Virus record (IMG/VR): IMGVR_UViG_3300042154_001056
Span: 1-30,502 of that record
DNA: 30,502 nucleotides
Origin: a virus
Reading direction: 5' to 3' (one strand)
Below the pieces are notes generated by a model. The model searched no databases and had not been told where the DNA came from. It saw only the letters and a program-made list of their open reading frames with translations. This document shows, piece by piece, positions 2,997 through 28,839 of this stretch (positions are counted from its first letter, which is position 1; each line of letters opens with the position of its first letter). The position numbers were made by a program, and so were the translations under genes.

Positions 2997-3040
2997 TCAC
3001 AATTAAAGTTGCAAATCAATAACAAATTGCATAATTTTAC
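2997..3040 (+). promoter_or_regulatory. Candidate rightward control site before the sigma gene
   Basis: TCACAATTAAA at 2997-3007 is the exact reverse complement of 2858-2868 in the regulator leader, so the same protein could bind both sides of the divergent region. A TTG at 3009-3011 is followed 20 nt later by TAATTTTA (3032-3039), one mismatch from TAnnTTTG. This would start transcription almost at the ATG at 3046. Confidence 0.35.
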
Positions 3041-3045
3041 TTTCC

Positions 3046-3621
3046 ATGAAAGAGATAGTTGATGCTCACTTTCTTGAGAACCATGAATATTACAAGAAAG
3101 TATGTCGCTACTCCTTTAAAGACCGCTATCTCTGGGAGGACCTACTGCAGGAAACATACCTTTGCTTTCTCAGAGTTAAGCCGGAAACAATAGAAAAGTA
3201 TCACGAACTCGGTAAGCTCCGCTCAATAGGAAACATAATCATCCGCTCCCTATACCAAGACAGAAAGAGAGCAAAGAAGAATAAGAACGGACATACTTCA
3301 CCACTATTTGAATTCAATTCATATAGCAATGAAGATAGCAACCTGCAGGATTCTAACGAACTAAACTACTTTGAGATTGAACTATACGAATTAGAGATGA
3401 AGGTTAACTATGACAAAGCTCTCATATTATTTGACAAGGCATTAACAGAACCCGTCTCAGATCATGCCGGAGCAAGTTCATTCCTAAAGATTAAAACATT
3501 CCTAGCAGTACAAGATTCTAATATCTATCGAATCAGCAAGCAGACAGGAATAAACAGAAAGTACATCACCGATGTATACAACGAAGCAAGAGAATACATA
3601 AAAAAAGAAATAGCAAAATGA
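3046..3621 (+). CDS. Sigma-70-like RNA polymerase sigma factor (phage)
   Basis: The 191-aa protein has the architecture of a small sigma factor. The region-2-like part contains WEDLLQETYLCFLR (residues 30-43, the core-binding motif) followed by IGNIIIRSLYQDRKRAKK (61-78, region 2.3/2.4-like, basic). A variable acidic linker follows, then a C-terminal HTH (about 158-185: IYRISKQTGINRKYITDVY) in the place of region 4. It is the first gene of the rightward virion arm, which suggests it redirects host polymerase to late promoters. A candidate promoter set is described below. It is an unusual sigma relative, and a non-sigma HTH regulator is the main alternative. The next gene overlaps by 4 bp. Confidence 0.68.
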   Translation: MKEIVDAHFLENHEYYKKVCRYSFKDRYLWEDLLQETYLCFLRVKPETIEKYHELGKLRSIGNIIIRSLYQDRKRAKKNKNGHTSPLFEFNSYSNEDSNLQDSNELNYFEIELYELEMKVNYDKALILFDKALTEPVSDHAGASSFLKIKTFLAVQDSNIYRISKQTGINRKYITDVYNEAREYIKKEIAK

Positions 3622-5329: not shown

Positions 5330-5735
5330 AGAAGGATATAAGAATTTAATACCTTATAAGAAAGGTCAATCTGGAAACCCTGCCGGAAGACCCCGTAAGT
5401 TTGTATGCCAACTTAAAGACATGGGATACAATAAGCAGGACATCAATCAGACCATTGAAAACATGATGGCTATGACTTTGGATGAGTTAGCAGACATCTA
5501 TAAAAACGAGATGTCCACTATTTTAGAAAGGACAATCGCCAATGCCATGCGTAAATCTTTAGAGCGTGGCTCCCTGTATTCTTTAGAAACTTTAATCAGT
5601 AGAGTTCACGGCACTCCAAAAGCTGAATTAGACCTTAATGCAAACGGAAGCTTGAATGTAAGTATCTTAAACGTGGACCCATTGGATTCAAATGATTCAG
5701 CAAACAACGGCACTCCGAAAGATAGTAGGTCTTAA
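5319..5735 (+). CDS. terS: Terminase small subunit-like protein
   Basis: The 138-aa product begins with the DUF5681-type motif YKKGQSGNPAGRPRKF (residues 13-28), common in phage and prophage terminase small subunits. A helical middle follows (TLDELADIYKNEMSTILERT; KSLERGSLYSLETLISRVHG). It lies immediately before, and overlaps by 44 bp, the large subunit. The expected role is recognition of phage DNA for packaging and regulation of the motor. The family is less conserved than TerL, so position weighs heavily in this call. Confidence 0.75.
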   Translation: MPSEEGYKNLIPYKKGQSGNPAGRPRKFVCQLKDMGYNKQDINQTIENMMAMTLDELADIYKNEMSTILERTIANAMRKSLERGSLYSLETLISRVHGTPKAELDLNANGSLNVSILNVDPLDSNDSANNGTPKDSRS

Positions 5736-6867
5736 AAAGCCGATTAAGATTATCCGAGGTGGCCAGGGTTCCGGCAAGACCATCTCAATTCTGATTCTCT
5801 TAATCAATCACGCTTCCAGAATCCCCAATCGGGAGATACTTGTTTTATCAGAGGAATTAACTAAGATGAGATTGACGGTCATAAAAGACTTTGTCAAGAT
5901 CATGCGAGAGATAGGGATATTTCAACAAAGTAGCTTCCTCGCTGAGACCCTTTACAAGTTCCCTAACGGGTCCTTTATTAAATTCATAGGATTAGATAAG
6001 GAAGATGTCGGAAAGGGTCTGCGCTCACATGTGGCCTATTTTAACGAGGTTAATAAATGCAATAGGGAATCTTATGTCCAGGTGGCATCCCGTGCTGATA
6101 ATATCTATGCTGATTACAATCCCGATGCTGAGTTTTACATTGACACCGATGTCATCCCAAGACCGGATGCTGACTTCCTTCAGTTAACCTTTAAAGACAA
6201 TGAGTTACTTCCAGAGAGGGAGCGGGAGAACATCTTAAACTATTACAATCAAGGTTATAACGAAGACGGCAGTATTAAGGATGCCTATTGGGCTAATAAG
6301 TGGCAAGTATACGGGCTAGGTAATATCGGTAACTTGCAGGGGGTTGTCTTCAGTAATTGGCAGATATGCGATGAGATACCAGAGCATGCCAACACCCTCT
6401 GTTATGCGATGGACTTTGGATTCACGAATGACCCTACTGCCCTAATCCAAGTCTTTAAACATGATGGCATGCTTTGGCTGGATGAGCTTGTTTATGAGAG
6501 GGGCCTAACCAATCCGGACATAGTTTCTAAGTTGGTTGAATACGGGGTCACGGGTCCTATTGTGGCAGATTCAGCAGAGCCTAAGAGTATTGAGGAAATA
6601 AGGAGAATGTGGTCCGGTGATATTGAGCCAGCTGAGAAGGGACCGGATTCAATTAGGAATTCAATAGACACCCTGCACAGATATAAATTAATGGTTACAA
6701 AAACTTCACTTAATCTAATAAATGAACTTAGATCATATCGCTGGAGGGAAGATAAGAGCGGCAATTCTCTTAATGAGCCGATTGATAAGAATAATCACGC
6801 TATTGATGCCGTGAGGTATGCTGCTTTGAATTACATCGGGAACCCATCAATATTCGAAGTATACTAG
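5692..6867 (+). CDS. terL: Terminase large subunit
   Basis: This is the packaging motor, an ATPase plus headful or site-specific nuclease. In the 391-aa protein the Walker A GGQGSGKT is at 23-30, a Walker B-like VAYFNEV at 114-120 supplies the catalytic Glu119, and a coupling-type QLTFKDN follows near 164-170. The RNase H-like nuclease has Asp241 in MDFGF, Asp293 in VADSAEP and Asp372 in HAIDAVRYA, a complete triad. Length and motif order fit the Terminase_3/PBSX group. The start lies inside the terS frame. The gene ends 34 bp before the next start, and that gap holds a candidate late promoter. Confidence 0.95.
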   Translation: MIQQTTALRKIVGLKKPIKIIRGGQGSGKTISILILLINHASRIPNREILVLSEELTKMRLTVIKDFVKIMREIGIFQQSSFLAETLYKFPNGSFIKFIGLDKEDVGKGLRSHVAYFNEVNKCNRESYVQVASRADNIYADYNPDAEFYIDTDVIPRPDADFLQLTFKDNELLPERERENILNYYNQGYNEDGSIKDAYWANKWQVYGLGNIGNLQGVVFSNWQICDEIPEHANTLCYAMDFGFTNDPTALIQVFKHDGMLWLDELVYERGLTNPDIVSKLVEYGVTGPIVADSAEPKSIEEIRRMWSGDIEPAEKGPDSIRNSIDTLHRYKLMVTKTSLNLINELRSYRWREDKSGNSLNEPIDKNNHAIDAVRYAALNYIGNPSIFEVY

Positions 6868-6870
6868 GGT

Positions 6871-6897
6871 ACAAAGTCCGAGATTCTCATATTATTA
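6871..6897 (+). promoter_or_regulatory. Candidate phage late promoter, site 1
   Basis: ACAAA (6871-6875), 12 nt, then CATATTATTA (6888-6897). The C of CAT is 14 nt before the ATG at 6902. The same two blocks with the same gap recur before 13364, 13962 and 16293. The TATTAT core is -10-like and would place the transcript start close to the start codon. Confidence 0.6.
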
Positions 6898-6901
6898 GAG
6901 T

Positions 6902-7519
6902 ATGGGTATGCAATCATTCAATGATTTCACGGTAGAGCAGTTCCAAGAGTGGCATAAGGTCATTTCTCAGGAAGATGACATCTTAGAACGTGAATTAAAA
7001 TTAGCAGCAATCTTAACGGGTAAGTCGGTGGAGTATCTTGAATCCATCCCTCGCAAGGACCTAACCAGAATCTTTGTAAAGGTTAACAGAATAGGCAATT
7101 CAATACCAAGCACAAAGGTCAACAGATATGTAAAGGTGGGCCGGAGTGTCTATTCTGCCATCTTGGATGCTAAAGAATTGCACGGGTTGATGAGTACTTC
7201 TCAATTCACAGCAGCGAAGACCTATGCTGCCAATCCGATTGAGAACATGCACATGCTGCTCCCACTTTACTACACAAAGTTTAAGTTATTCGGGAAGAAG
7301 AATCTCGAGGAAAACCAGCTCAAGCTCAGCGAAGACTTTAAGAAAGTTAAAATCGGGGATGTATACGGGGCTGTTTTTTTTTACTCAGTTCTGTGGAATC
7401 AATTTGCTCCAATTTTAGAAGCCTCTTTGAAGGAGGCGACAACGATAATAGAGGGTCTGGTGGAGGATGGGCAGGCTTTTATCAAGCATACGGATGGTAT
7501 GCCACCATTGAATGGGTAG
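6902..7519 (+). CDS. Tail assembly chaperone, upstream (G-like) product
   Basis: The 205-aa product resembles the first cistron of siphovirus tail assembly chaperones. It has an N-terminal helix pair (TVEQFQEWHKVISQEDD, then LAAILTGKSVEYLESIP), a middle domain, and a helical C terminus (QFAPILEASLKEATTIIEGL). These proteins hold the tape measure during tail assembly. A -1 frame that is open from 7351 and ends at 7644 carries a domain typical of the longer fusion product, so programmed frameshifting is likely. The start at 6902 is fixed by the promoter-like motif just upstream. An alternative start is the internal ATG two codons on. Confidence 0.62.
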   Translation: MGMQSFNDFTVEQFQEWHKVISQEDDILERELKLAAILTGKSVEYLESIPRKDLTRIFVKVNRIGNSIPSTKVNRYVKVGRSVYSAILDAKELHGLMSTSQFTAAKTYAANPIENMHMLLPLYYTKFKLFGKKNLEENQLKLSEDFKKVKIGDVYGAVFFYSVLWNQFAPILEASLKEATTIIEGLVEDGQAFIKHTDGMPPLNG

Positions 7520-7644
7520 CAAGGGAGACACCTGGTGTCAATGAGGATATTATTTGTGATTGGACTGCAATAAGATTTTTAAATAGGGTGCAATTTTTAA
7601 AGCACCGAGACGAGATTAGACAATTTGAACAACGAGGGCATTAA
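7351..7644 (+). CDS. Tail chaperone -1 frame extension (GT-like), translated by frameshift
   Basis: This frame is -1 relative to the 205-aa gene and is open from just after TAA 7348-7350 to TAA 7642-7644. It contains no ATG; the only usable internal start is a GTG at 7393. The last 60 residues (GWAGFYQAYGWYATIEWVAR, then a helical part ending FLKHRDEIRQFEQRGH) look like the T domain of tail chaperone fusions, with the GWYATI signature. A run of nine T at 7374-7382 offers the slippery heptamer TTTTTTT in the right phase (7375-7381). Codon character suggests the zero frame is still real to about 7470, so the slip may lie further on. The exact site is not resolved. Confidence 0.6.
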   Translation, partial: NRGCIRGCFFLLSSVESICSNFRSLFEGGDNDNRGSGGGWAGFYQAYGWYATIEWVARETPGVNEDIICDWTAIRFLNRVQFLKHRDEIRQFEQRGH

Positions 7645-8164
7645 TAGAATATTATTGAACTTCGGTATCACTTTAAAGAAGGACCTACAAAAGTCCTTAG
7701 TTAAAAAGGGTAGGGAGAAGGCTGCTAAGTATGGCAGCGTGCCTAACGACAATACCAACTTAGGGGATAGCATCCGACCAGAGATCATTGAGAGTGAGAG
7801 TGGCCTAACCTTCAATCTTAACCTATCAGACTACTATAAGTGGGTAGATGGAGGAAGGAAGCCAGGTGGAGTTAGCAGAGCAGGTAGAGCATCGATAAAA
7901 CAATGGATTAGGCAAAAGGGAATCAATCCCTCTGAGATAATTCAGAAAATAAGTGGCAGCAAGACTGCGGTCCCATTTGCAAAAGCACAAGAGCAACTTA
8001 GCTTCTTAATTGCTAGGAAGATTAAGAGAGAAGGATATAAAGCAAATCGATTCTTCTCATCAGTTTTAGAAGATGGCAGATTAAAGAACTTGGAAGAAGA
8101 TTTAAAAAAGGAAACAGGTAAACAAATCAGAATTATATTAAATGGCGGTAACGACTTACAATAA
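7625..8164 (+). CDS. Tail-completion/neck protein, HK97 gp10-like
   Basis: The 179-aa protein has the pattern of the gp10-like tail completion family: an N-terminal helix (NRILLNFGITLKKDLQKSL), LSDYYKWVDGGRKPGG near residues 71-86, the helix ASIKQWIRQKGI, and the C-terminal IARKIKREGYKANRFF. Such proteins join the tail tube to the neck. The start is TTG at 7625, inside the end of the chaperone extension (20-bp overlap); no ATG or GTG is available nearby that keeps the domain. It overlaps the next gene by 23 bp. Confidence 0.72.
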   Translation: MNNEGINRILLNFGITLKKDLQKSLVKKGREKAAKYGSVPNDNTNLGDSIRPEIIESESGLTFNLNLSDYYKWVDGGRKPGGVSRAGRASIKQWIRQKGINPSEIIQKISGSKTAVPFAKAQEQLSFLIARKIKREGYKANRFFSSVLEDGRLKNLEEDLKKETGKQIRIILNGGNDLQ

Positions 8165-9365
8165 ACCTTCAGCTTTTGCATTAGCGTATAATCCGCTCGT
8201 GTTCTATGCTAATTCAAATCAGACTGCACAACCTAACTTTAGATACAAGGTTGTCATAACTGACTTAATAAGTACTGAGGCACAGACTTATTGGATTAAC
8301 GCTGACCCTGCAGGATTCTGCAGATTTGATGCCTCCCCATTTACAATCAGTCGCTTCTCTCATTACTTGCCAGCTAATCAATACGGATGGAAGGCAAGCA
8401 ACTCAATCAGAAAGATTCGGGTTAACATCGGAGAGTATTACGGGACAACTCCAACCACTTACACGGGGACAAATTACGACTTCATCTGTTGGAATGGGGT
8501 TGAAGATACCAGAGATTTCCCCGACTTCAATTACACGAACTATGTGTACAATGATTCTGTAGCAAACTATAAGTATTTAACTAGCCCACTTAGCACCTTT
8601 GCTTATTTAGACCGCTCCGATTATCTGTATGTCTTAACAACTCAGGCAGGAGATTTAAAGCACCTTATAGTTAAGACTTGGAATGCTGCAGGAGCGCAGC
8701 AAGGTTTTTACAAGATTACAAGCCCATTTGAATCGAGTTCAGACTACCGAGAAAAGTACGTCTGCATTGATATCGGTATGAAGGGCTTAACTAATATCCC
8801 ATCCGGACAAGTGACGGTCTTGAGTGGGACCTTTCCAATCAATTGGAATAACGTAGCATATTACGATGTATCGGAGACTAATAGTTCAGCAGGTGAGCCA
8901 ACCAGCAGACAGATAAAGAGATTGACGGTTAATTGTACCGCTAAATTTCCTGTTTACACCGTTCACTTCCTAAAGAAGAATGGAGCCTTTGAAACTTGCC
9001 ACTTCAACAAGCGGAGTGACTTTACAAGCAACAAATCAGAATCAAGGTATAGTGTATTTCCTTATGTGGCCAATGGAGTAGACAATTATTCTTATTCTCG
9101 TGGGTCCACATTCAGCAAGGTATTGTCAATCGAGGAAACAACCACTTTTAATCTCAAGACCGACATGATCTCAAGTGACTTGGTTGATTTGTACAAAGAA
9201 TTGTTTACAAGCCCGTTGATATTTTTGGATGAGGGTTCTGCCAAAGGATATTCTCAATTAACCTACGTTGATAATTCTTACAAACTCAACAAGGCATGGA
9301 ATGAGAAGCTATTTAACATACAAGCAAACTTCACTCTCACTTCTACTAACTACAGGCAGCAATGA
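8142..9365 (+). CDS. Large tail structural protein, 407 aa
   Basis: The product is rich in aromatic residues, Asn, Ser and Thr and in predicted beta strands, as expected of a distal tail or baseplate protein. The opening (TTYNKPSAFALAYNPLVFYA, then QPNFRYKVVI) resembles a family I associate with Bacteroidota phages and prophages. I cannot name a function. It lies between the tail-completion gene and a second large tail protein, with overlaps on both sides (23 bp upstream, ATGA downstream). A Dit-like or tip role is inference only. Confidence 0.6.
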   Translation: MAVTTYNKPSAFALAYNPLVFYANSNQTAQPNFRYKVVITDLISTEAQTYWINADPAGFCRFDASPFTISRFSHYLPANQYGWKASNSIRKIRVNIGEYYGTTPTTYTGTNYDFICWNGVEDTRDFPDFNYTNYVYNDSVANYKYLTSPLSTFAYLDRSDYLYVLTTQAGDLKHLIVKTWNAAGAQQGFYKITSPFESSSDYREKYVCIDIGMKGLTNIPSGQVTVLSGTFPINWNNVAYYDVSETNSSAGEPTSRQIKRLTVNCTAKFPVYTVHFLKKNGAFETCHFNKRSDFTSNKSESRYSVFPYVANGVDNYSYSRGSTFSKVLSIEETTTFNLKTDMISSDLVDLYKELFTSPLIFLDEGSAKGYSQLTYVDNSYKLNKAWNEKLFNIQANFTLTSTNYRQQ

Positions 9366-11653
9366 AGTCAAGATTCGTAATTAGCGGAACAGAGGTAGGC
9401 TTTCTCAATGAGCTTCCATTATCAATCACAATGGCGGTCAATGATGCACGGGAAGTCGGCTCATCAATGTCCAGCTATTCAAACACGATTGAGATACCAG
9501 GTGGAGCGGCTGTCGATAGATTATTTGAATTCATCTTTCAGGTAAATGCTACCGGTACAAACTTCAATCCGAACTTGAAGACCCCTGCTGAGTATTATCT
9601 TAATGAGGTTAGGGTGTTTAATGGCTCCTTGCAGTTACTCAAGATTAAAAAGAAAATCAACGGAACCATCACGGAGAAAGTTTATGAGTGTTCGCTTAAG
9701 GGTGACAACGGCAATATCTTTACGGCTATCGCTGGCAAGTATCTCACCGATATTGACTTCTCTGATTTAGATCATCCATTCAGTATTAGCACAACGAACC
9801 CATTAGCAGACCCTAAGTTCAATGCAAGTGTATCTGACAAGTATTGCTATCCTTTTATAGATTACGGGGTTAATCAATATGAGGTAGGCGAGCCACTTGG
9901 ATTGAGATGGGACTTTACTTATTTAAAGCCTGCAATATTTGAGAAGGAGTATGTCTTTAGAATCTTTAGAGATGCGGGGTATACTTGGAGCAACACAAGC
10001 TGGTTCAATTTCTTTGAGGCAAGCAAGATTGTCATTCCTTGTGTTTCAGCGGGAAGACTTCAGATACCTGCTTCCGTAAAAGCAAGCAAATCATTCAGAG
10101 TAGGCAGGACTTCAAATATTGTTGTCAATACGGCTGGCACGGTGACAACGGGTTCAATTTATTCTTTTGGGAATGCAACCATCGCCTCTCCCGTTATTTG
10201 GAATGATGAAACGACTGCACCATACTTTGATACTGCCGGAGCTTATAATACAAGCACGGGTCTATTCACGGTGTCTTATGCGGCATTCTATGACTTAAGC
10301 ACGGTTGTCAATTTAGCTATTGATGTGACACCCCCTTCCGGAACCGGAGCATTTACAGGTGGACTTCAAGTGGAAGCGGTGCTTGAGAAAAGTACAAACT
10401 CTGGCAGCACTTACACAATGGTTGCCTCAAATATTGCAGCCATCACAATAGGTGGAGCAGGGACAAGCGTTCAAACATTCACAGGTGGTGTTCAAATAAG
10501 CTATTCAGACACGACTGCAAGTGCAGTAGGAACAATTTATCGGGTGAGAGTTATTAATCAGTCATGTCTAATTACTTTCTCTGGTGGTTCTGGTAGCTGC
10601 TCAATAGACACAAAGATTCTCGGTGGTACAAATAGCACTTTCTATGGTCTTATCACTCGTGGAGACCTGCCTTGGGGTAATACGGTTGTAATGAATGACA
10701 CCATCCCTAAGAAAGTTAGTCAATTAGACTTCCTGACATCAGTCATCAAGTGCGAGCATCTGATTCTGGAAGCGAATAAAGACAACCCAACGGAATATAA
10801 CATATTCACTCGGGAAGATTTCTACGATGAGGCTGATATATTAGATTGGACCGATAAGATTGACGTATCTCAGCAGATTGAGATCATGCCGATGGGAGAA
10901 TTGGACTTCAATCGGTACAACTTCACTTACAAAGCCGATGCAGATTATTACAACAAGCTTTATTTTGAGACTTACAAGGAAATTTACGGCACTCACATTC
11001 AAGATGTAGAGAATGACTTTGTCCGCAATGAGAAGACTATTGAGGTGGTTTTTTCTCCCACTCCGGTAGCTAGCTGGAACAATAGCATTGTGGTGCCTCG
11101 TTTTTACAATTACGATAAGAATACAGCAGGGCTGCAGGTAGTCAAGCCATTAGAAGTGAACATAAGGAGGTGCTACTTTCAATTTGTTTATACAACGGTC
11201 AATACGGTTGCTATGAGCTTCAATGGCAATAGCATCCAGCTGAATGCTTATCCGTATTGCGGTGACATCGGCAATCCTTATGTGCCGACTTATGATATGA
11301 ACTTCGGAGTGCCTCAGGAAATCTATTGGAATTATCCAGGGGCGCAGTATACGACAAATACACGCTACAACAGCCGATATAGCAAATGGCTATACGAAGT
11401 ATCTAATAAGGATAGTAAGATAGTTACAATGTATGCTAGGCTTAATGAGCATGACATTTATGGATTCTCATTCCGTAAAACTCTATACATAATCGATTCA
11501 TATTATCGGGTCAATAGGATTATTGATTACGACCCAAAGAATGACGGGCTTTGTCAGTTAGAACTTTTAAAGCTGACAATAGGAGACCCATTCGTTCCGG
11601 AAAGCATTAGTACAGAATATGACCCATCAGAAGGAACTGGTGGTTCAGCTTAA
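9362..11653 (+). CDS. Large tail/baseplate protein, 763 aa
   Basis: The N terminus (FVISGTEVGFLNELPLSITM, then SSYSNTIEIPGGAAVDRLFE) matches a pattern common at the start of Bacteroidota phage tail proteins, where the peptide resembles the first domain of distal tail or tail-hub proteins. The centre (about 240-420) is Ser/Thr/Gly-rich and beta-like (VVNTAGTVTTGSIYSFGNAT), perhaps a carbohydrate-binding or jelly-roll insert. The C-terminal third (LDFNRYNFTYKADADYYNKL) is again hub-like. It starts with an ATGA overlap and is followed, 24 bp on, by the tape measure. The likely place is the tail tip; receptor contact is possible. Confidence 0.62.
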   Translation: MKSRFVISGTEVGFLNELPLSITMAVNDAREVGSSMSSYSNTIEIPGGAAVDRLFEFIFQVNATGTNFNPNLKTPAEYYLNEVRVFNGSLQLLKIKKKINGTITEKVYECSLKGDNGNIFTAIAGKYLTDIDFSDLDHPFSISTTNPLADPKFNASVSDKYCYPFIDYGVNQYEVGEPLGLRWDFTYLKPAIFEKEYVFRIFRDAGYTWSNTSWFNFFEASKIVIPCVSAGRLQIPASVKASKSFRVGRTSNIVVNTAGTVTTGSIYSFGNATIASPVIWNDETTAPYFDTAGAYNTSTGLFTVSYAAFYDLSTVVNLAIDVTPPSGTGAFTGGLQVEAVLEKSTNSGSTYTMVASNIAAITIGGAGTSVQTFTGGVQISYSDTTASAVGTIYRVRVINQSCLITFSGGSGSCSIDTKILGGTNSTFYGLITRGDLPWGNTVVMNDTIPKKVSQLDFLTSVIKCEHLILEANKDNPTEYNIFTREDFYDEADILDWTDKIDVSQQIEIMPMGELDFNRYNFTYKADADYYNKLYFETYKEIYGTHIQDVENDFVRNEKTIEVVFSPTPVASWNNSIVVPRFYNYDKNTAGLQVVKPLEVNIRRCYFQFVYTTVNTVAMSFNGNSIQLNAYPYCGDIGNPYVPTYDMNFGVPQEIYWNYPGAQYTTNTRYNSRYSKWLYEVSNKDSKIVTMYARLNEHDIYGFSFRKTLYIIDSYYRVNRIIDYDPKNDGLCQLELLKLTIGDPFVPESISTEYDPSEGTGGSA

Positions 11654-11677
11654 ATAAATTTTAATTACTCAAAAGAA

Positions 11678-13333
11678 ATGGCAGAAGAAATTGGTTTTCA
11701 GGTAAAAGTTGGCGGTACAGATTCACTTTCATCTTTAAAAAAAGAATTTAAGGACCTACAGAAAGAACTTGAAAAGACAGAGATTGGTACTACTCAGTAT
11801 CAAAAGACTTTAGAAAAATTAGGAGCGGTAAAGGATGAAATCGGTGATCTCCGTGATGCCATTAATGCCTTAAATCCAGAGGGTAAGGTTGCTGCCTTTC
11901 AGAATGTAGCTGGTAAGTTAGCGGGAGGATTCCAGGCTGCTACCGGAGCCGCTGCTTTGTTTGGAGCGCAATCTGCAGAACTTGAAAAACAATTATTGAA
12001 GGTCCAAGCTGCTACCGCTTTAGCAGAGGGGATTCAGTCTGTGGTTGGTTTAAGTGATGCCTTTGTAGTTTTGAAGACGGCTGTAATGGCTACAAATCCT
12101 GTATTCCTAGTTCTTGCCGGAGTTTTAGCTGGTATTGCTACTGCTTATGCTTTGTGGAAGAATGTGATTGGAGAAACTGCTAAAGCAGATGCTGCTCTAA
12201 ATTCCGAACTTGAAAGACAAGCGGCAAATCAAGATATAATAACCAAGCAAATAGGTCGACAATTAGAATTACAGAAATTAACTGCAAAGAATAAAAGTGA
12301 AGAATTAAAGTTTGAACAGGAAGCAGAGATTAAACTCCTTGCTAGTATTCAAACTCGTGAATTCCTTTTAAAGCAAGTAAAAAATAAAACTGATGAGCAA
12401 AAGAAGGAATTAGCTGATTTAAGGCAGCAAGATGCTGATAGTTACAACAGGCTATTAATATTAAAGATAAATATAGGACGTGCCTTAAGGGATGAAGAAA
12501 AGCAACGTCTTGATGAGCTAGCTGCTAAGGAAATAACAACTACTAAAGAAGTTACGAAAGTAAAAGTTGATTCGATTAAGGAGGTAAGTAAAGCAAAAGA
12601 AGTAACGGGAATGAATGAGGTGCAATTTGAAGCATACATTCAAGGATTGAAGGATAAACAAAAGAAAAAGGATGATGATGCAAAGGCACAAGCAGAGCAG
12701 GAAGAAGCAAAACGACAACAGAAATTACAAGAAGATAAGGATAAGGCAGAGAAAAAAAGACAAGAGGATGCAGCAGCAGCATTAGTTTTAGAACAACAGC
12801 AAGCACAAGCTAGGTTACAAGCAGAAGAAAACTTCTTCAATGCAGCACAAGGATTAAGTCAGGCATACTTTCAAGCTCGACTTAACCAAGCTCAAGGTAA
12901 CGATGCCGAAACTGAGAAGATTAGAAAAAAACAATTCCAAGCAGAGAAGGCTTTTAGTGTTGCTCGTGCAATCATTGACGGATATAGGTCGGTTGTTGGA
13001 GCTTTGGCACAAACTGCCACTCTTGGTCCTGCTGCTTCAGTTCTGGCAGCATCCAACGCTATTCTTGCAGCAGCCAATGTAGCAAAGATATTAAGTACTC
13101 AATATAATAGCGGAACTCAAGCAGGAGGTGGAGGGGGAGGTAATTTAGCACTTCCTTCAGGCTCCGGAAATCAAAGCATTCCAATGCCAACGATATCTGC
13201 CCCCGTAAACCCACAGGCAAGCACTCAGTTGAACGCTCAAGGTTACAACGTGTCTAAAGTTGTGGTTGTTGAGAAAGACATCACAACCGTTCAAAATCGA
13301 ATAAACAGACTTAAGGTCCAAGCTACTTATTAG
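11678..13333 (+). CDS. Tape measure protein
   Basis: The 551-aa product begins with a helical region typical of tape measures (SLSSLKKEFKDLQKELEKTE), has an Ala-rich middle with a hydrophobic stretch (about 130-160: NPVFLVLAGVLAGIATAYAL), and continues into long Lys/Glu/Gln coiled coils (about 170-410). A second Ala-rich segment (about 430-470) and a Gly/Ser-rich tail (QAGGGGGGNL) follow. Tape measures span the tail lumen and set its length at roughly 0.15 nm per residue, so a tail near 80 nm is inferred, shorter than in most siphoviruses. It lies after the tail proteins rather than before them, which is unusual. Spurious reverse-strand frames at 12442-13077 are its shadows. Confidence 0.85.
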   Translation: MAEEIGFQVKVGGTDSLSSLKKEFKDLQKELEKTEIGTTQYQKTLEKLGAVKDEIGDLRDAINALNPEGKVAAFQNVAGKLAGGFQAATGAAALFGAQSAELEKQLLKVQAATALAEGIQSVVGLSDAFVVLKTAVMATNPVFLVLAGVLAGIATAYALWKNVIGETAKADAALNSELERQAANQDIITKQIGRQLELQKLTAKNKSEELKFEQEAEIKLLASIQTREFLLKQVKNKTDEQKKELADLRQQDADSYNRLLILKINIGRALRDEEKQRLDELAAKEITTTKEVTKVKVDSIKEVSKAKEVTGMNEVQFEAYIQGLKDKQKKKDDDAKAQAEQEEAKRQQKLQEDKDKAEKKRQEDAAAALVLEQQQAQARLQAEENFFNAAQGLSQAYFQARLNQAQGNDAETEKIRKKQFQAEKAFSVARAIIDGYRSVVGALAQTATLGPAASVLAASNAILAAANVAKILSTQYNSGTQAGGGGGGNLALPSGSGNQSIPMPTISAPVNPQASTQLNAQGYNVSKVVVVEKDITTVQNRINRLKVQATY

Positions 13334-13359
13334 CAAAATGAGGAATCTTCATATAGTTA
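13333..13359 (+). promoter_or_regulatory. Candidate phage late promoter, site 2
   Basis: GCAAA (13333-13337), 12 nt, then CATATAGTTA (13350-13359). The C of CAT is 14 nt before the ATG at 13364. This is the weakest of the four sites, with three differences from the consensus. It overlaps the tape measure stop. Confidence 0.45.
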
Positions 13360-13363
13360 ATGT

Positions 13364-13939
13364 ATGGAGATTCCAACTTTTAAAATGGTCCTTAATCCGG
13401 ATGACGAAGGATTAGGATTAAAATTAATGTCTGTCGTTGACAATCCTGCCATCATGGTGACATGGGCAAAGTTCAACGAGCAGGAAATCAAATTATCTAT
13501 TCAAGACGAAGACCAGCGCATCGTGTTCGGTCCTGCTCTTATCCCCGACCTTCCAATCAAGAGATCAATAATGGGTGAGAAATTCTTTGTGTCAATCGAC
13601 AGGGAGAATATTCTTAAGACTGCAATAAAATTCCAAAAGGACAACCTGGCAAACAAAATAGACGAGAATCACAGCCAGCAAGTTCTATCCGGCATCACAA
13701 TCTTTGAAACATTCGTGACTGATGAGAATCGGGTGACAATGGCTAAAGGCTTTGAGAGCCTGCCGATGGGAACTTGGTTTATCACCGCTAAAGTTAATAA
13801 CGATGACATCTGGTCTAAGATGAAATCTGGAGAGCTTAATGGCTTTTCTATTGATGGTTTATTCTCTTTCAAACAAGCTGAAGACTTGACTGAGAAAGAC
13901 ATCCGAGGCATCACTCGTGAAATTCTTAACAAATTATAA
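13364..13939 (+). CDS. Prohead maturation protease, XkdF-like
   Basis: The 191-aa protein resembles XkdF-type phage serine proteases (PF14550). It shows FGPALIPDLPIKR near 55-67, a His in DENHSQQ (His103), GTWFITAKVNNDDIWSKMKS near 136-155 and the Ser motif LNGFSIDG (Ser162). His and Ser are the expected catalytic pair. It cleaves the scaffold and capsid precursors during head maturation and, as usual, directly precedes the scaffold and capsid genes. The ATG at 13364 is the only start that follows the conserved upstream motif. No truncation is seen. Confidence 0.8.
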   Translation: MEIPTFKMVLNPDDEGLGLKLMSVVDNPAIMVTWAKFNEQEIKLSIQDEDQRIVFGPALIPDLPIKRSIMGEKFFVSIDRENILKTAIKFQKDNLANKIDENHSQQVLSGITIFETFVTDENRVTMAKGFESLPMGTWFITAKVNNDDIWSKMKSGELNGFSIDGLFSFKQAEDLTEKDIRGITREILNKL

Positions 13940-13955
13940 ATCTCGCATATTATTA
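13929..13955 (+). promoter_or_regulatory. Candidate phage late promoter, site 3
   Basis: ACAAA (13929-13933), 12 nt, then CATATTATTA (13946-13955), a perfect match to the consensus. The C of CAT is 16 nt before the ATG at 13962. ACAAA lies in the last codons of the protease gene. The site would drive scaffold and capsid, products needed in bulk. Confidence 0.6.
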
Positions 13956-13961
13956 TAATAG

Positions 13962-14546
13962 ATGAAAGAAAACAAATCATTACTAGCTAAGATGGGTGAA
14001 CTCATTAAGGCTCATTTCTCAGCTGAAGAAATTGCAGCGATGAAGGAATCACAAAAAAAACTAGAATCAGAAATGGCTCCGAAGTTCTCTGAGGCAAATA
14101 CTATTGACGGAAAGAAGCTTTCTTATGAAGGTGAATTACAAGTTGGTACTGCCATCATGGTTGTCGATGCTGCAGGCTTAACTCCTGCTCCAGATGCAGT
14201 TCATGAATTAGAAGACGGAACAAAAGTAACAACCGTAGGCGGTATTGTTACAATGATTGATAAAGAAGAAGCTGCTATGCCTGCTCCTGCTATGCCTGCA
14301 CCGGATGTAACTCAAATGTCTGCTCAATTTTCAGCACACAAAGATGAGGTGTCCGCATTGATTGCAAAGTTTTCAGCCGAAAAAGAAAGTCTCCTTGCAG
14401 AAATCAAAGGTCTGAAAGAAGTGCAACTCAGCACGCTGAAAGCATTTGACAAGGTATTCAACACTCCTATCAATACTGAATCAGTTGAAGTTAAAGAATT
14501 TAAAGACATGACACCTGCTGAAAGGTATCGTGCCTCTAAAGGATAA
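13962..14546 (+). CDS. Capsid scaffolding protein
   Basis: The 194-aa protein sits between protease and capsid, the position of scaffold genes. The N-terminal part is helical (LLAKMGELIKAHFSAEEIAA), the middle is a beta-like segment (GKKLSYEGELQVGTAIMVVD), followed by Ala/Pro/Met repeats (PAPAMPAP), and the C-terminal third is a coiled coil (DEVSALIAKFSAEKESLLAE). Acidic, helical and low-complexity composition is normal for scaffolds, which are poorly conserved. The call rests on composition and position. Confidence 0.65.
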   Translation: MKENKSLLAKMGELIKAHFSAEEIAAMKESQKKLESEMAPKFSEANTIDGKKLSYEGELQVGTAIMVVDAAGLTPAPDAVHELEDGTKVTTVGGIVTMIDKEEAAMPAPAMPAPDVTQMSAQFSAHKDEVSALIAKFSAEKESLLAEIKGLKEVQLSTLKAFDKVFNTPINTESVEVKEFKDMTPAERYRASKG

Positions 14547-14609
14547 TAAGAGCTAATCAAGCGGCTCCGTAACGACTTGAATTAATTAAAAAATAAACAA
14601 ACAAATAAA

Positions 14610-15632
14610 ATGGGAATTACTTATACTGGTCAGTCCACCATCAAAGGACCAAACTTGGTGCCTGTCCTCCAAGAAATCTTCTTCACAAATCAAACTGTTA
14701 GCAGCTCTTGGGTTACTTTCAATGATGACATGAAAGAAGGAACTATCATCACTTCTGCTTCTATCACTGCAACTGCTCAAGCTTACACAGGTGCTTCACT
14801 TTCTGCTTCTGGTAGCATTACTCTTACTGACCGTGTTGTTAGTTTGACTAAACTTGAATACAAAGATACTTTCGTTGAGGAAGCTATCCGTGCAGGTCGT
14901 TTCAACACTTCAATGGCACAAGGTGCTTTAGAAATTGAATCAAATGAATTCAACACTAAGGTTCTTGGAATGTACGCTCCAAAAGTATCTGCTGATGCAG
15001 AGCGTTTGTTTTGGGGTGGTGTAACTGCAGCTACTAAGACTGCTGTTGCTGCTTTAACTCCAGGTGCTGCTCAAGGTTCTATCACTGCTGCTGCTCAAAC
15101 TGCTTTCGCTACTTTGACTGCTGGTTTAGTTGATGGTATCTTCTCTAAGGCTTTCTATGACAATGGTGCAATTGGTGGTTACATCAAGGTAACCGGAACA
15201 ACCGTTACAAGTGCCAATATCGCTGCCGAAGTGTCCAAGATTTACGCTGCAATCCCAGCTGAGATGCTTGCTGATGCTGCTGACCCTGTATTGATCTATT
15301 GTCCACGTGCTTGGAAGCAATTAGCTTACAACGCTAACAATACAGTTGGTGCTTCACAACAAATCAACTTCCAGATTGAAGGTGGAAACTTCGCTACTAG
15401 CCGTGTATTCTACAACGGTGTTGAGATGGTTTTCATCCCTAGTCCTAGCAACCTTTGGGCTTATGCTAACCGTGTTAGCCGTGTAATGTGGAACTCTGAT
15501 TCTACTGCAGATATGAGCAAAGTAGAGATTGGTAAAGTAGCAAATGATGGTGACACTAAGTTCATCCGTGCAATCTACACAATCCAAGCTCACATCGCTG
15601 ATGCAGCAAAAGGAGTTCTTTACGGAGGTTAA
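14610..15632 (+). CDS. Major capsid protein
   Basis: The 340-aa product has the size, Ala/Thr richness and strand-helix pattern of an HK97-fold capsid subunit. Stretches such as TLTDRVVSLTKLEYKDTFVE and GGVTAATKTAVAALTP are visible, and the C-terminal part (GNFATSRVFYNGVEMVFIPS, then NLWAYANRVSR) is like the end of the family. The codons are visibly biased (many GCT, GGT, ACT, AAC) compared with neighbours, as expected of a highly expressed gene. A G-free A/C-rich leader (14587-14609) precedes the ATG, the form of strong Bacteroidota initiation regions. A rho-independent terminator follows 7 bp after the stop. Confidence 0.85.
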   Translation: MGITYTGQSTIKGPNLVPVLQEIFFTNQTVSSSWVTFNDDMKEGTIITSASITATAQAYTGASLSASGSITLTDRVVSLTKLEYKDTFVEEAIRAGRFNTSMAQGALEIESNEFNTKVLGMYAPKVSADAERLFWGGVTAATKTAVAALTPGAAQGSITAAAQTAFATLTAGLVDGIFSKAFYDNGAIGGYIKVTGTTVTSANIAAEVSKIYAAIPAEMLADAADPVLIYCPRAWKQLAYNANNTVGASQQINFQIEGGNFATSRVFYNGVEMVFIPSPSNLWAYANRVSRVMWNSDSTADMSKVEIGKVANDGDTKFIRAIYTIQAHIADAAKGVLYGG

Positions 15633-15638
15633 ATTCAT

Positions 15639-15665
15639 AGGGGGGGAGTAACATCTCCCCCTTTT
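15639..15665 (+). terminator. Rho-independent terminator after the capsid gene
   Basis: A 7-bp GC stem GGGGGAG (15642-15648) / CTCCCCC (15655-15661) with a TAACAT loop is followed by TTTT (15662-15665). Wobble and A-T pairs extend the stem to 15639/15664. The U-tract is short, so partial readthrough into the tail tube gene at 15680 is likely and would set capsid above downstream genes. Confidence 0.75.
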
Positions 15666-15679
15666 AAAACAATAAAAAT

Positions 15680-16204
15680 ATGCCTTGTCTATTAACATCT
15701 GGTTATAATTTTGCAGGCTGTAAAGGCGGTGCTGGTGGTATCTCTGAAGTTCTAATCACAGAGATTGACAACCTAACATCTAGCACCTTGACAGCTAATG
15801 TTTACACTGCATTGACTATGTCAACAGGTAAGCAATTCAGACGCTACATTCTTGATAAAGAAATGGGAAGCTGGTCTGATAATGGGACCTATACTAAAGA
15901 AAGCGGAACTTATACATATGAGCCAACCGTGTCTTTCACAATCAAAGGAATTTCGACTGCCTTACAGGCTGAGCTTAAATTAATCGCTCAGAATACTCTT
16001 ATTTTGATTGTTAAGGACCGGAATGGTGTCTATCGTTTATTTGGTCGTGAAAAAGGAATGGATTTAATGACGGTTGAGAGTACTGTTGGTAAGGCTATGA
16101 CTGATTTTGCTGGGTTCAATCTAAACTTTGTTGGTGGTGAGATTGACTTTGCGCACGAAGTGCAAACTTCACTAATCACGGCTTTACTTTCCCCTGCTGC
16201 TTAA
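15680..16204 (+). CDS. Major tail (tube) protein
   Basis: The 174-aa protein opens MPCLLTSGYNFAGCKGGAGG, a pattern of Bacteroidota-phage tail tube proteins, and continues with beta-rich sequence: KQFRRYILDKEMGSWSDNGT, TYEPTVSFTIKG, NTLILIVKDRNGVYRLFG, DFAGFNLNFVGGE. Such subunits stack in rings to form the non-contractile tube. Placed between the capsid and portal genes and flanked by two terminators, it has an expression unit of its own, which suits a structural protein needed in many copies. Length is normal for the family. Confidence 0.75.
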   Translation: MPCLLTSGYNFAGCKGGAGGISEVLITEIDNLTSSTLTANVYTALTMSTGKQFRRYILDKEMGSWSDNGTYTKESGTYTYEPTVSFTIKGISTALQAELKLIAQNTLILIVKDRNGVYRLFGREKGMDLMTVESTVGKAMTDFAGFNLNFVGGEIDFAHEVQTSLITALLSPAA

Positions 16205-16227
16205 TTCTTCAAATAAATCGAAAAGGA

Positions 16228-16258
16228 AGACTGCCCCGTAAGGCGGTCTCTTTTTTTT
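16228..16258 (+). terminator. Rho-independent terminator after the tail tube gene
   Basis: An 8-bp stem, AGACTGCC (16228-16235) and GGCGGTCT (16242-16249) with one G-U pair, encloses a CCGTAA loop. It is followed by C and eight T (16251-16258), a textbook strong terminator 24 nt after the tail tube stop. The next unit begins with a new candidate promoter at 16261. Confidence 0.88.
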
Positions 16259-16260
16259 AT

Positions 16261-16287
16261 ACAATAACCCTAATTCGCATATTATTA
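16261..16287 (+). promoter_or_regulatory. Candidate phage late promoter, site 4
   Basis: ACAAT (16261-16265), 12 nt, then CATATTATTA (16278-16287). The C of CAT is 15 nt before the GTG at 16293. It lies directly behind the strong terminator, where a promoter must exist if the portal unit is to be transcribed, which is independent support for the motif. Confidence 0.65.
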
Positions 16288-16292
16288 ATATA

Positions 16293-16706
16293 GTGAAGTT
16301 AACTGCTAATACATCAAATACGGTCATTGCGACATTAGCTGAGAAAACTACTATTGTTAATGTACGTTATTTATTCTGTGCAAAGGGTAAAGATGAGAAC
16401 ATTAGCAAGTATTGCCTGGTCACCGACATCGCTCCTTCAGTTAACAAGGAGAGATATAATCAATTCACCATCACATTAAAGCCTAGCCCTGTTCCAGCTA
16501 ATGGGGAGATATATTTGACGGAATCAAATTACGATTATTCGTTCTATGAATTAACACAAGCACAGGCAGCATCTATAAATTTTAATAGCGTTGATGTTAG
16601 TCAATACGGCCTCGTTGAGACCATGAGACTACAAGTGGTTGATAATACTAACAATACAAGCACGGAGTATGTGCTAACAGAAAATGACAGAGCCTACGAA
16701 GGATAA
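16293..16706 (+). CDS. Conserved structural-like protein, 137 aa
   Basis: The start is GTG at 16293, placed by the upstream motif. The product is beta-rich (KLTANTSNTVIATLAEKTTI, then YNQFTITLKPSPVPANGEIY) and ends with YEG. This opening resembles a small family found next to capsid, tail and portal genes in Bacteroidota phages. Its role is unknown; a neck, decoration or tail accessory protein is plausible. It overlaps the portal start by 23 bp. Confidence 0.6.
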   Translation: MKLTANTSNTVIATLAEKTTIVNVRYLFCAKGKDENISKYCLVTDIAPSVNKERYNQFTITLKPSPVPANGEIYLTESNYDYSFYELTQAQAASINFNSVDVSQYGLVETMRLQVVDNTNNTSTEYVLTENDRAYEG

Positions 16707-18687
16707 TATTGTAACCAATTCACAAGTCTTGACAATCAAGATGAGTGGCTCACAATCACCTAAGTTGGTCGAGGACCAATACAAGGGAATTATTAAGTGG
16801 GGGTCTAATAACAGATATCCGGCTGAGAAGCTGTTATATTGGTATGAAAACTCTGCTATTCACGGAGCTATCTGTAAGGGCAAAGCACGCTATTTAAGCG
16901 GTACTAAAATCACTGCAGACATTCAGTCACCGCAGGTCGATGAGTTTCTAAGTAAGGCTAATGCTCTTGAAAGCTGGCATGATCTAAAGAAGAAGATTGA
17001 CATTGATGAAGTTGTCTGTGGAGGTTACTTTATTAAGGTTTATTCTAATGCTTTTGGAGTGCCGCTTCAGTTCTTTCACTTGGACTTTGCTAGATGCCGG
17101 ATAACTAAAGATGGCAAGTTCATCAAGTATTCAAATGATTGGTCAGATAATTTAGAGCCTGTAACTGCTTTTCCTGTTTATAACGAGGGAATAGTTGAGA
17201 CAAGTGTTTACTATTATAAGTCTTATTCTCCATCTTCTAAGAAATTTGACGGCTTATATCCAAAGCCGGAATACGAGCAATGTAGTCAAGATATTGACAC
17301 CGATGCTCGTGTTTCTGTATTCTTTAATTCATTAGTAAGAAATAACTTCTCTGCCGGAACCATTGTGACTATCCGTAATGGAAGTCAGGAGCCAGCAGCT
17401 AAGAAGGCACTTGTTGACCGATTAAAGGGTGAGCATGCAGGAGAAGAAAATGCAGGTAAGCCTATTATAATCTTTACCGGAAAAGACGGTCAACCCACAG
17501 AGGTTGTCTCTCTGAATCCGAATGATCTCGACAAACAATACGAAGGAATCGGGATGAGAAATCAGCAGAATATCATCGCTGGTCATGGTGTCAATTCCGT
17601 TCTATTTAAAATCAAGACGGCTGGTCAATTAGGTGGTCGCACAGAATTAATCGAGGCTCACGAGCTTTTCGTTAATGAATATGTAAAGCCGAAGCAGGTA
17701 AAATTCAACAATATGCTTGCTGAGTTCTTCTCTCTGAAGTACAACATGGAGGCTAAATTCGATGTTGAGCAGGTTCGGCTTATTGGTAAGGAATTACCAC
17801 TTGACAATATAAATGTCATCAATGCGATTGGTCCAGAGGTATTCAAGGCTTATGTTTTCGACACTTTTGGTCTTAAGAAGCCGGAAGATGTTAATGGAGT
17901 AGTTGTGGAGCAGGGCAAGTCTAATGACAATCTAAGGGGCCTTTCTGCTTCAGAGAATGCCGATGTCATCCGTATTACTAGGGACTTCTCAAAAGGTCGC
18001 ATGCCGGAATCAATGGCAATGCATCGCTTGACTGCTTATGGACTTACCACAACTCAGGCAAAAGAGATTCTCGGCCTTCCTATCGATGTTCAGCAGTCTG
18101 CAGATAATTCAGACAGACTGATTGAGTTATTTAACAAGTACGCTCATGACATCAACTTTGATGATGAGGTTATTGATATTCAATCTGTGCAATTAGCGGA
18201 GGCGAATACTGATACTGAAATCCGTAATTCAATCCTTAATGAATTAAAAGGAGACCCTTCCATTAGCGTGTATAAACTCTCTAAGATGTTCTCAATTACC
18301 GAAGATGAGGTAAAGGGTCACATTGATTATTTGGAGAGCAAGAAGCTTGTTCAGATAGGTCCTAATGGCATAACCCCAACTGAAAAGGGAGCCAATAAAA
18401 CTATTGACCCTGTTACAACTGAGATTTACACTGAGTATGTTTATGGGTTGCGCAAAGACCAAGAAGGCAAGGATTTAGAACTGCCCACAACCCGTCAATT
18501 CTGCAAGGATATGATAGCCCTTACCAAAAATAAGGCTCTGACATTTGAGGCAATTAACATGCTTGAGAATGAATTTGGGGATAATGCTTGGTATTTTAAA
18601 GGTGGATTCTACAATAACGGAAAGGTGACAACTCCTTTCTGCAGACATACTTGGAAAGCTGTCACTAAAATTAGAAAGAAGAAATAA
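16684..18687 (+). CDS. Portal protein with long C-terminal extension
   Basis: The 667-aa protein has portal features: an N-terminal SSNxRYPAEKLLYWY-like segment (WGSNNRYPAEKLLYWYENSA), FFHLDFARCRITKDGKF near 136-152, a central part including LVRNNFSAGT, and NIIAGHGVNSVLFKIKTAGQ. It forms the ring at the packaging vertex. From about residue 510 the sequence is not portal core. A winged-helix-like stretch (ILNELKGDPSISVYKLSKMF, then VKGHIDYLESKKLVQIG) is followed by a Cys/His-containing tail (TTRQFCKDMIALT...TTPFCRHTWKAV) of the kind found at the end of some head morphogenesis proteins. The portal is thus probably a fusion. It overlaps its neighbours by 23 bp and 1 bp. Confidence 0.8.
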   Translation: MTEPTKDNIVTNSQVLTIKMSGSQSPKLVEDQYKGIIKWGSNNRYPAEKLLYWYENSAIHGAICKGKARYLSGTKITADIQSPQVDEFLSKANALESWHDLKKKIDIDEVVCGGYFIKVYSNAFGVPLQFFHLDFARCRITKDGKFIKYSNDWSDNLEPVTAFPVYNEGIVETSVYYYKSYSPSSKKFDGLYPKPEYEQCSQDIDTDARVSVFFNSLVRNNFSAGTIVTIRNGSQEPAAKKALVDRLKGEHAGEENAGKPIIIFTGKDGQPTEVVSLNPNDLDKQYEGIGMRNQQNIIAGHGVNSVLFKIKTAGQLGGRTELIEAHELFVNEYVKPKQVKFNNMLAEFFSLKYNMEAKFDVEQVRLIGKELPLDNINVINAIGPEVFKAYVFDTFGLKKPEDVNGVVVEQGKSNDNLRGLSASENADVIRITRDFSKGRMPESMAMHRLTAYGLTTTQAKEILGLPIDVQQSADNSDRLIELFNKYAHDINFDDEVIDIQSVQLAEANTDTEIRNSILNELKGDPSISVYKLSKMFSITEDEVKGHIDYLESKKLVQIGPNGITPTEKGANKTIDPVTTEIYTEYVYGLRKDQEGKDLELPTTRQFCKDMIALTKNKALTFEAINMLENEFGDNAWYFKGGFYNNGKVTTPFCRHTWKAVTKIRKKK

Positions 18688-28171: not shown

Positions 28172-28839
28172 ACCATTCCTCCTGTCTTTCTTTTTGGGTT
28201 TTTATTAATCCACCGCTTCAAGTGAGTTGAAAATTCCGCCATCGAATTGTACTCCGCTTCGCTTACTGCTCTAAAATCATTTAATCGAGCAAGAATCTCA
28301 TCCGGCCTTTTTCCCAAATCTCTGCAGATTGATTCCAGATAACTTGAGTTTGGAAAGTCAGAAAAAAAAGTTTCACGCTTATTTATTTTAACATTACTAC
28401 CTAAAACAATTTCATCTTCATTTTCATTTTCAGATTGCATTACATTTGTATCTTTTTTCGATACATTTGTATTTATTTCTGGTACATTTGTATTACTTTT
28501 GCTTTGCTTTTGTATTTTGATTGCCTTCTCTAATTTCCTTTTTTCCCATACTTCTTTTGCCGTTTGGCTCATATTATTACTCTTTTTAGATCGTAGGTCC
28601 ACCTCATTTGCTAACCTTTCGTTGTAGAATCCGGTGTCGCTTTCAATGAATTTACTTCTAAGAATTTCATGATTTCCAACCAATGAATTAAAGCTAATTT
28701 TGTCAATTATCCCTCCGTGTTGATGTTGACTGCATAAGAGCCGAATGTAAATGCCAACTTGCTCATGACTTAAAAACATAGTTCCGGTAAGAAAGTCGCT
28801 GCTATAAAATAAAAATGCTGGGTCTTTTGCCATATTCAT
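28165..28839 (-). CDS. DUF1376-like replication protein
   Basis: The 224-aa protein opens with AKDPAFLFYSSDFLTGT and FLSHEQVGIYIRLLC, the typical start of DUF1376/replication-initiator-like phage proteins, winged-helix proteins usually adjacent to DnaB- or DnaC-type genes. The middle (about 110-150) is low-complexity with three TNV motifs, and the C-terminal part (DEILARLNDFRAVSEAEYNS, then HLKRWINKNPKRK) is helical and basic. The likely role is origin binding or helicase loading. The alternative start at 28833 (the second Met) gives MAKDPAFLFY, closer to the family's usual N terminus. Confidence 0.75.
   Translation of the reverse strand: MNMAKDPAFLFYSSDFLTGTMFLSHEQVGIYIRLLCSQHQHGGIIDKISFNSLVGNHEILRSKFIESDTGFYNERLANEVDLRSKKSNNMSQTAKEVWEKRKLEKAIKIQKQSKSNTNVPEINTNVSKKDTNVMQSENENEDEIVLGSNVKINKRETFFSDFPNSSYLESICRDLGKRPDEILARLNDFRAVSEAEYNSMAEFSTHLKRWINKNPKRKTGGMVW
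28441..28500 (-). repeat. Three short repeats in the DUF1376-like gene
   Basis: ACATTTGTAT occurs three times (plus-strand reading) within this stretch, 15-24 nt apart, encoding successive NTNV/TNV motifs in a hydrophilic linker. Linker-length variation between related phages would be expected. Confidence 0.7.

Follow-up and report, generated by a model that had tools for sequence, protein, structure and literature searches.

Two-part elements before phage virion genes as probable late promoters of a phage-encoded sigma factor

What turns on the virion genes of a phage when the promoter boxes of its host are missing in front of them? The question arises from IMG/VR virus record IMGVR_UViG_3300042154_001056, of which we analysed positions 1 to 30,502 on one strand (the window, 30,502 nt), and where an earlier note had pointed to a two-part motif recurring before four virion-gene starts. 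Our analysis indicates that the four sites are very probably phage late promoters, read by host core RNA polymerase together with a putative sigma factor encoded by the phage at 3046-3621. The positions and spacing of the elements, their conservation at orthologous starts, the co-variation of sigma and promoter and the absence of host boxes are read from the sequence; from these we infer the RNA start sites, the binding of the 3046-3621 sigma to the four sites P1-P4, the timing and leaderless translation.

All four sites, at 6871, 13333, 13929 and 16261 on the + strand, are present exactly as claimed: at each, an ACAAA-like half is separated by exactly 12 nt from a CATATTATTA-like half, and the 10-mer cores all end 4-6 nt 5' of the start codon. 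Candidate promoter P1 (6871..6897; ACAAA-N12-CATATTATTA) comes after the large terminase gene terL (5692..6867, +; Pfam Terminase_3C E 1.6e-17) and has its TATTAT hexamer at 6890-6895, 6 nt before the ATG at 6902; homologs of the gene behind it (6902..7519, +) lie directly behind terL in relatives. P2 (13333..13359; GCAAA-N12-CATATAGTTA), the weakest copy, has TATAGT at 13352-13357, 6 nt before the ATG of the prohead protease gene (13364..13939, +; Pfam Peptidase_S78_2 E 4.7e-17). P3 (13929..13955; ACAAA-N12-CATATTATTA) has TATTAT at 13948-13953, 8 nt before the ATG of a gene (13962..14546, +) that its position and homologs suggest to be scaffold-like, followed by the capsid gene (14610-15632). 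P4 (16261..16287; ACAAT-N12-CATATTATTA) has TATTAT at 16280-16285, 7 nt before the GTG of a gene recognized by its homologs (16293..16706, +), followed by the portal gene (16684-18687, with portal matches). The terminator reported directly before the fourth site is real as well: an intrinsic terminator (16228..16259, +) with an 8-bp stem at 16228-16249, then CTTTTTTTTA, whose T-run abuts P4.

Relatives, collected by searching with the capsid, terminase, portal and sigma proteins, carry equivalent elements. They have two-part motifs of their own, specific to each lineage and of constant internal spacing per genome, at orthologous starts (after terL and before the protease, the scaffold and gene 16293). 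The element is TTGTAAAAA-N15-TTATAT in lineage B1 (L008) and GGGAAAA-N13-TGTTWATA in lineage B2 (L033/L009), in both after terL, before the scaffold gene and before the gene 16293 orthologue. Before the protease gene and the gene 16293 orthologue stand TTGTAY-N15-ATATWATATA in lineage C (L117, L144, L129) and TTGCA-N15-GTCATATACC in lineage D (L107, L114, L125). Lineage E (L004) has GTTATATKATTRA after terL and before the scaffold gene, lineage H (L037) has ACAAA-N12-ACTTATTA before the protease and scaffold genes, and lineages F (L026) and G (L022) carry TTGTAAAAA-N13-GTATATTAA and GTAAC-N14-TGTATTATG, respectively. P1 thus has counterparts in promoter-like sites after terL, P2 has strong ones before the protease gene in C, D and H, P3 has them before the capsid-preceding gene in B1, B2, E, F, G and H, and the terminator-promoter arrangement of P4 recurs in B1, C and D. 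In the nearest relative, L011 (capsid 80% identical), ACAAA-N12-TACATTATTA-TTT-GTG precedes the gene 16293 orthologue; since ACAAA-N12 is found there and in lineage H, the -35 half and the spacing of the window recur independently.

Within genomes, the late sites agree with one another in ten lineages, most pair scores being reached by only 0-3 of 300 shuffled pairs; the weaker pairs are those with window P2 and some in C2, C3, G and H. The lineage consensus patterns, which were composed from these sites, match late sites only in the sequence examined and come near 0 in shuffles. A motif equally frequent at random positions had been named as grounds for dropping the idea; late-site patterns are near 0 in shuffles of the window and of the relatives alike. 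In several lineages (L117:9497, L008:11644 and window 16228-16287), the terminator before gene 16293 has a T-run that continues into the -35 box, forming a compact terminator-promoter unit.

The proposed reader is the product of 3046..3621 (+), a small putative two-domain sigma factor (region 2 plus a region-4-like end) resembling those of the extracytoplasmic function (ECF) group. Its direct scores are weak (E 3e-4 against PHROG 1740, a sigma factor family, and E 0.19 against Pfam Sigma70_r2), and the assignment rests on homologs. An iterated profile search found such homologs encoded ahead of terL in many lineages, C among them, and the L023 homolog, which matches the window protein with a tblastn E of 2e-6, lies above the Pfam Sigma70_r2 cut-off (26.4 versus 24). 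A region 4 is suggested by a weak Sigma70_r4_2 match in one homolog, by C-terminal helices in the structural model and by whole-length ECF fold matches. The AlphaFold model, built on 13 sequences, reached a predicted local distance difference test (pLDDT) score of 60 and a predicted template modelling score of 0.43, good for fold search only; a single-sequence prediction (pLDDT 39) was discarded. Foldseek against the PDB returned ECF sigma factors as top matches, the best being 6dv9 (E 8e-3, probability 1.0), and nearly all of the better matches were sigma factors. Taken together, these results support 3046-3621 as a member of a conserved ECF-like sigma family upstream of terL, in line with the sigma factor that the earlier note had placed there. 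As sole query against viral contigs, the window sigma found L019 only; in the phage collection, the capsid matched only Cellulophaga phage phi46:1, at 37%. In lineage E, a 160-aa open reading frame upstream of terL (L155:13280, minus strand), preceded by TAAATTTG, looks sigma-like by eye and was missed by the profile.

If this protein reads the elements, the two should change together, and a scan with one sigma subfamily (L025-L290), which is distinct from the window's own lineage, gave about 40 loci having both a sigma gene and a post-terL promoter, with 26 distinct pairs. The -35 box is GTAAAA-type throughout, except for GGGAAAA in L048 and L033, and only these two carry the recognition helix KEKNLIYANN; elsewhere it is N-Q/E/H-R-K/Q-LIY-Q/E-N or a close variant. 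In partial Mantel tests on the 26 pairs, whose permutation is liberal under shared descent and removes it incompletely, and in which terL distances are rough, the -35 box followed region 4 given region 2 and terL (r 0.45; 9 of 5000 permutations) and not region 2 given region 4 (r -0.06), while the -10 box gave r 0.53 with region 2 (0 of 5000) and r 0.20 with region 4 (319 of 5000). The spacer tracks region 2 too (r 0.46), so the region 2 signal may in part reflect common descent. The clearest cases are L032 and L248, whose region 2 is 95% and 88% identical to that of L048 and whose -10 box is 100% like that of L048, whereas region 4 and the -35 box are each only 62% like L048, the -35 box being 100% like L025/L029; the promoter types paired with L048 and L032 are GGGAAAA and TTGTAAAA, respectively. 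Judged by these identities, L032 and L248 are natural hybrids, a hybrid sigma being matched by a hybrid promoter. Because the boxes lie less than 25 bp apart, simple linkage does not explain how each half tracks one sigma domain. These comparisons support pairing the -35 box with sigma region 4, and both the -10 box and the spacer with region 2.

Several observations weigh against a phage sigma as reader of the four sites. The weak direct scores of the window protein, the separate lineage of the co-variation set and the shared descent left in the Mantel tests have been given above. The exact window motif is absent from all relatives but L019 (99% identical, the same phage), so a simple motif count would fail beyond it, and the comparison had to use orthologous gene starts. 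Within the window, the three-mismatch level that is needed to include the 13333 site gives 5 matches against 3.0 expected, and in an unbiased test, the sharing of one exact 10-mer by 3 of 47 gene-upstream regions was reached by 18% of shuffles. P2 taken alone is weak, and in lineage H a host-type box follows terL.

The last point belongs to the strongest alternative, that the promoters are read by a host primary or alternative sigma factor, possibly with a phage activator. The terminase relatives found in genome contigs are mostly from Bacteroidota, which points to this phylum as the host, and the primary sigma factor there uses TTTG / TANNTTTG promoters (PMC6847099). In this phage family, the box would provide the early step: of 15 lineages, 10 have exact TANNTTTG no more than 65 nt ahead of the sigma gene, compared with 5% of random windows, and it is absent from 27 of 29 late sites across the phage family (present at 2) and from all four in the window. 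The lack of a match to the host-type promoter, as the earlier note had it, is thereby borne out. Before the window's own sigma gene no exact TANNTTTG was found, just TAATTTTA (3032..3039, +), an imperfect host-type -7 box with TTG at 3009-3011 and a 20-nt spacer, a possible early promoter of the sigma gene. For the E. coli-type sigma-70 consensus TTGACA-N16-18-TATAAT, P2-P4 score 9-10 of 12, but the region holds 37 such matches against 33.1 by chance. What speaks for a host sigma is that lineage H, along with several lineages in which no sigma gene turned up (their contigs being short upstream), carries TATATTTG boxes behind terL, and that the incomplete window contig may lack other regulators. 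Yet a host factor would hardly account for a motif that shifts between close relatives in step with the phage sigma, even where a single domain is swapped, and we consider this alternative unlikely. The TATATTTG host-type box lies 4-7 nt before the first post-terL gene in L037:8497, L052, L054, L058 and L087, and some lineages may use the host sigma after terL.

A second alternative reads the elements as translation signals: AT-rich DNA set at a constant distance from the start codon, which would aid ribosomes without Shine-Dalgarno pairing. It draws on the cores ending 4-6 nt before the start codon at all four window sites, and on the A-rich upstream contexts used by Bacteroidota (PMC6847099). 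The argument that the internal spacing is more constant than the distance to the start codon, from which a DNA-binding element rather than a ribosome site had been proposed, is weak inside the window, where the start codon lies 14-16 nt from the first letter of the 10-mer and so varies by no more than 2 nt. In relatives, however, it is strong. The distance from element to start, site by site, is 4/24/4 nt in B1, 5/33/8 in B2 and 5/25 in F with the internal spacing unchanged, the scaffold copy standing 23-33 nt from the start codon in these lineages versus 3-8 nt at the other sites; L168 shows the same pattern, its scaffold copy lying about 20 nt or more further out at constant spacing. Since the spacing stays constant in four lineages while the scaffold distance shifts by about 20 nt or more, a ribosome signal is excluded as the common explanation, and the DNA-binding element is upheld. 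The -35 half also lies beyond the reach of the ribosome, the halves track separate sigma domains, and the element is absent from most gene starts, all of which makes a translation signal quite improbable.

A third alternative, chance repetition of AT-rich words with only some of the four sites real, is more improbable still. The window taken by itself is suggestive, because P2 lies at chance level for three mismatches and the 10-mer sharing is reached in 18% of shuffles. Its other counts are far from chance: the motif with at most one mismatch has 3 matches compared with a shuffle mean of 0.017, the exact 10-mer CATATTATTA has 5 copies compared with 0.15 expected, and a pattern covering all four sites, composed after seeing them, has 4 matches versus 0 in 20 shuffles. 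Two exact cores without an ACAAA box, at 28570 and 28897, lend chance some weight; both are + strand copies in the early region, where the genes run antisense to them, and were set aside as further promoters for want of a -35 box. The evidence of the window alone is thus moderate, and it is the relatives, with equivalent elements at orthologous positions in many lineages, that make the case firm. Scarcely credible are late promoters of a phage single-subunit RNA polymerase, which exists in other phages and could be missing from a partial contig, since a pair of boxes around a spacer of variable sequence looks sigma-like, the window genes examined include no such polymerase gene, and the co-variation is with sigma.

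Under the preferred reading, late promoters served by the phage sigma, the sigma gene would be expressed early, in most lineages by the host sigma factor and polymerase, and its product would direct host core RNA polymerase to the late promoters. In each of these, sigma region 4 would read a -35 box (approximately TTANCAAA) and region 2 a -10 box, CATATTATTA with the hexamer TATTAT, across a spacer of fixed length; P4 would restart transcription behind the terminator. RNA would start about 6-8 nt downstream of TATTAT, a placement modelled on phiEco32 and phage 7-11, which would put the 5' end of each of the four mRNAs on the start codon or no more than about 2 nt from it. In these two phages, starts directed by phiEco32 gp36 and 7-11 gp47 lie 6-9 bp from the element, 6-8 bp being the measured value for phiEco32 (PMC8948821). 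In leaderless genes, a TA-like box lies about 10-12 bp ahead of the start (PMC3160421), and a -10 box some 10 bp upstream fits the window, where the hexamer ends 6, 6, 8 and 7 nt before the start codon. From this 6-8 nt distance, most late mRNAs are predicted to be leaderless or nearly so. This would set them apart from typical Bacteroidota, in which such short leaders are rare: leaders below 10 nt make up about 3.7% in B. thetaiotaomicron (PMC7366714), and 87% of leaders exceed 10 nt in F. johnsoniae (PMC6847099).

The proposed system is like those of phiEco32 and 7-11, in which a phage sigma redirects host core polymerase to middle and late genes, and promoter positions are kept while the consensus differs among related phages with the sigma (PMC8948821); late promoters of 7-11 are likewise two-part (GTAAtg-16-aCTA; PMC8948821). 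It is unlike them in its Bacteroidota hosts and in promoters that abut start codons, with mRNAs predicted to be leaderless. The window sigma had no tblastn match in the phage collection and was not aligned directly to gp36 or gp47; here, the number of lineages makes it possible to follow sigma/promoter co-variation and natural domain swaps. With ECF (group 4) sigmas, such as M. tuberculosis sigma L and sigma H, it shares the two-domain layout and fold matches, and with ECF promoters the strict box sequence and rigid spacer (PMC6411747). Its sequences are far from Pfam models, however, no anti-sigma gene was identified, and the boxes are not GGAAC-like, the -10 box resembling TATTAT. We found no description of late promoters for this phage group in the open-access literature and regard the system as one of the phiEco32/7-11 kind.

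Such a system would offer a readable late-transcription code for widespread, mostly uncultured Bacteroidota phages, naming late genes, RNA starts and the reader protein. The co-variation and the natural hybrids of sigma domains and promoter halves form a data set on how sigma regions 2 and 4 choose DNA, and candidate orthogonal sigma/promoter pairs for use in Bacteroidota might be drawn from them. The system suggests, besides, that leaderless translation may be routine in Bacteroidota phages, in a phylum with otherwise few mRNAs that lack a leader.

The early step has a peculiarity of its own. In the scanned subfamily, the first aligned sigma codon is ATC in 32 of 44 loci and invariant across 23 distinct genes, although ATC is the rarest internal isoleucine codon (42 of 341). 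The host -7 box TANNTTTG ends 3-4 nt before this ATC (L254:4893, L251:56, L262:2478, L275:7021, L032:1252, L048:881 and others), and in several loci (L251, L254, L262 and L275 among them) the codon immediately before it is a stop, so these have no in-frame ATG, GTG or TTG start upstream. The simplest reading of the invariant ATC is that AUC initiation on a leaderless sigma mRNA is likely. On a wider proposal we are evenly divided: the whole lytic switch may run on leaderless or nearly leaderless mRNAs, with a sigma mRNA from a host promoter that starts at an invariant AUC in one large branch, and with a fast-changing sigma reading co-evolving promoters whose halves swap with its domains. An ATG at codon 15 is present in 19 of 24, and the sigma of the window begins with ATG.

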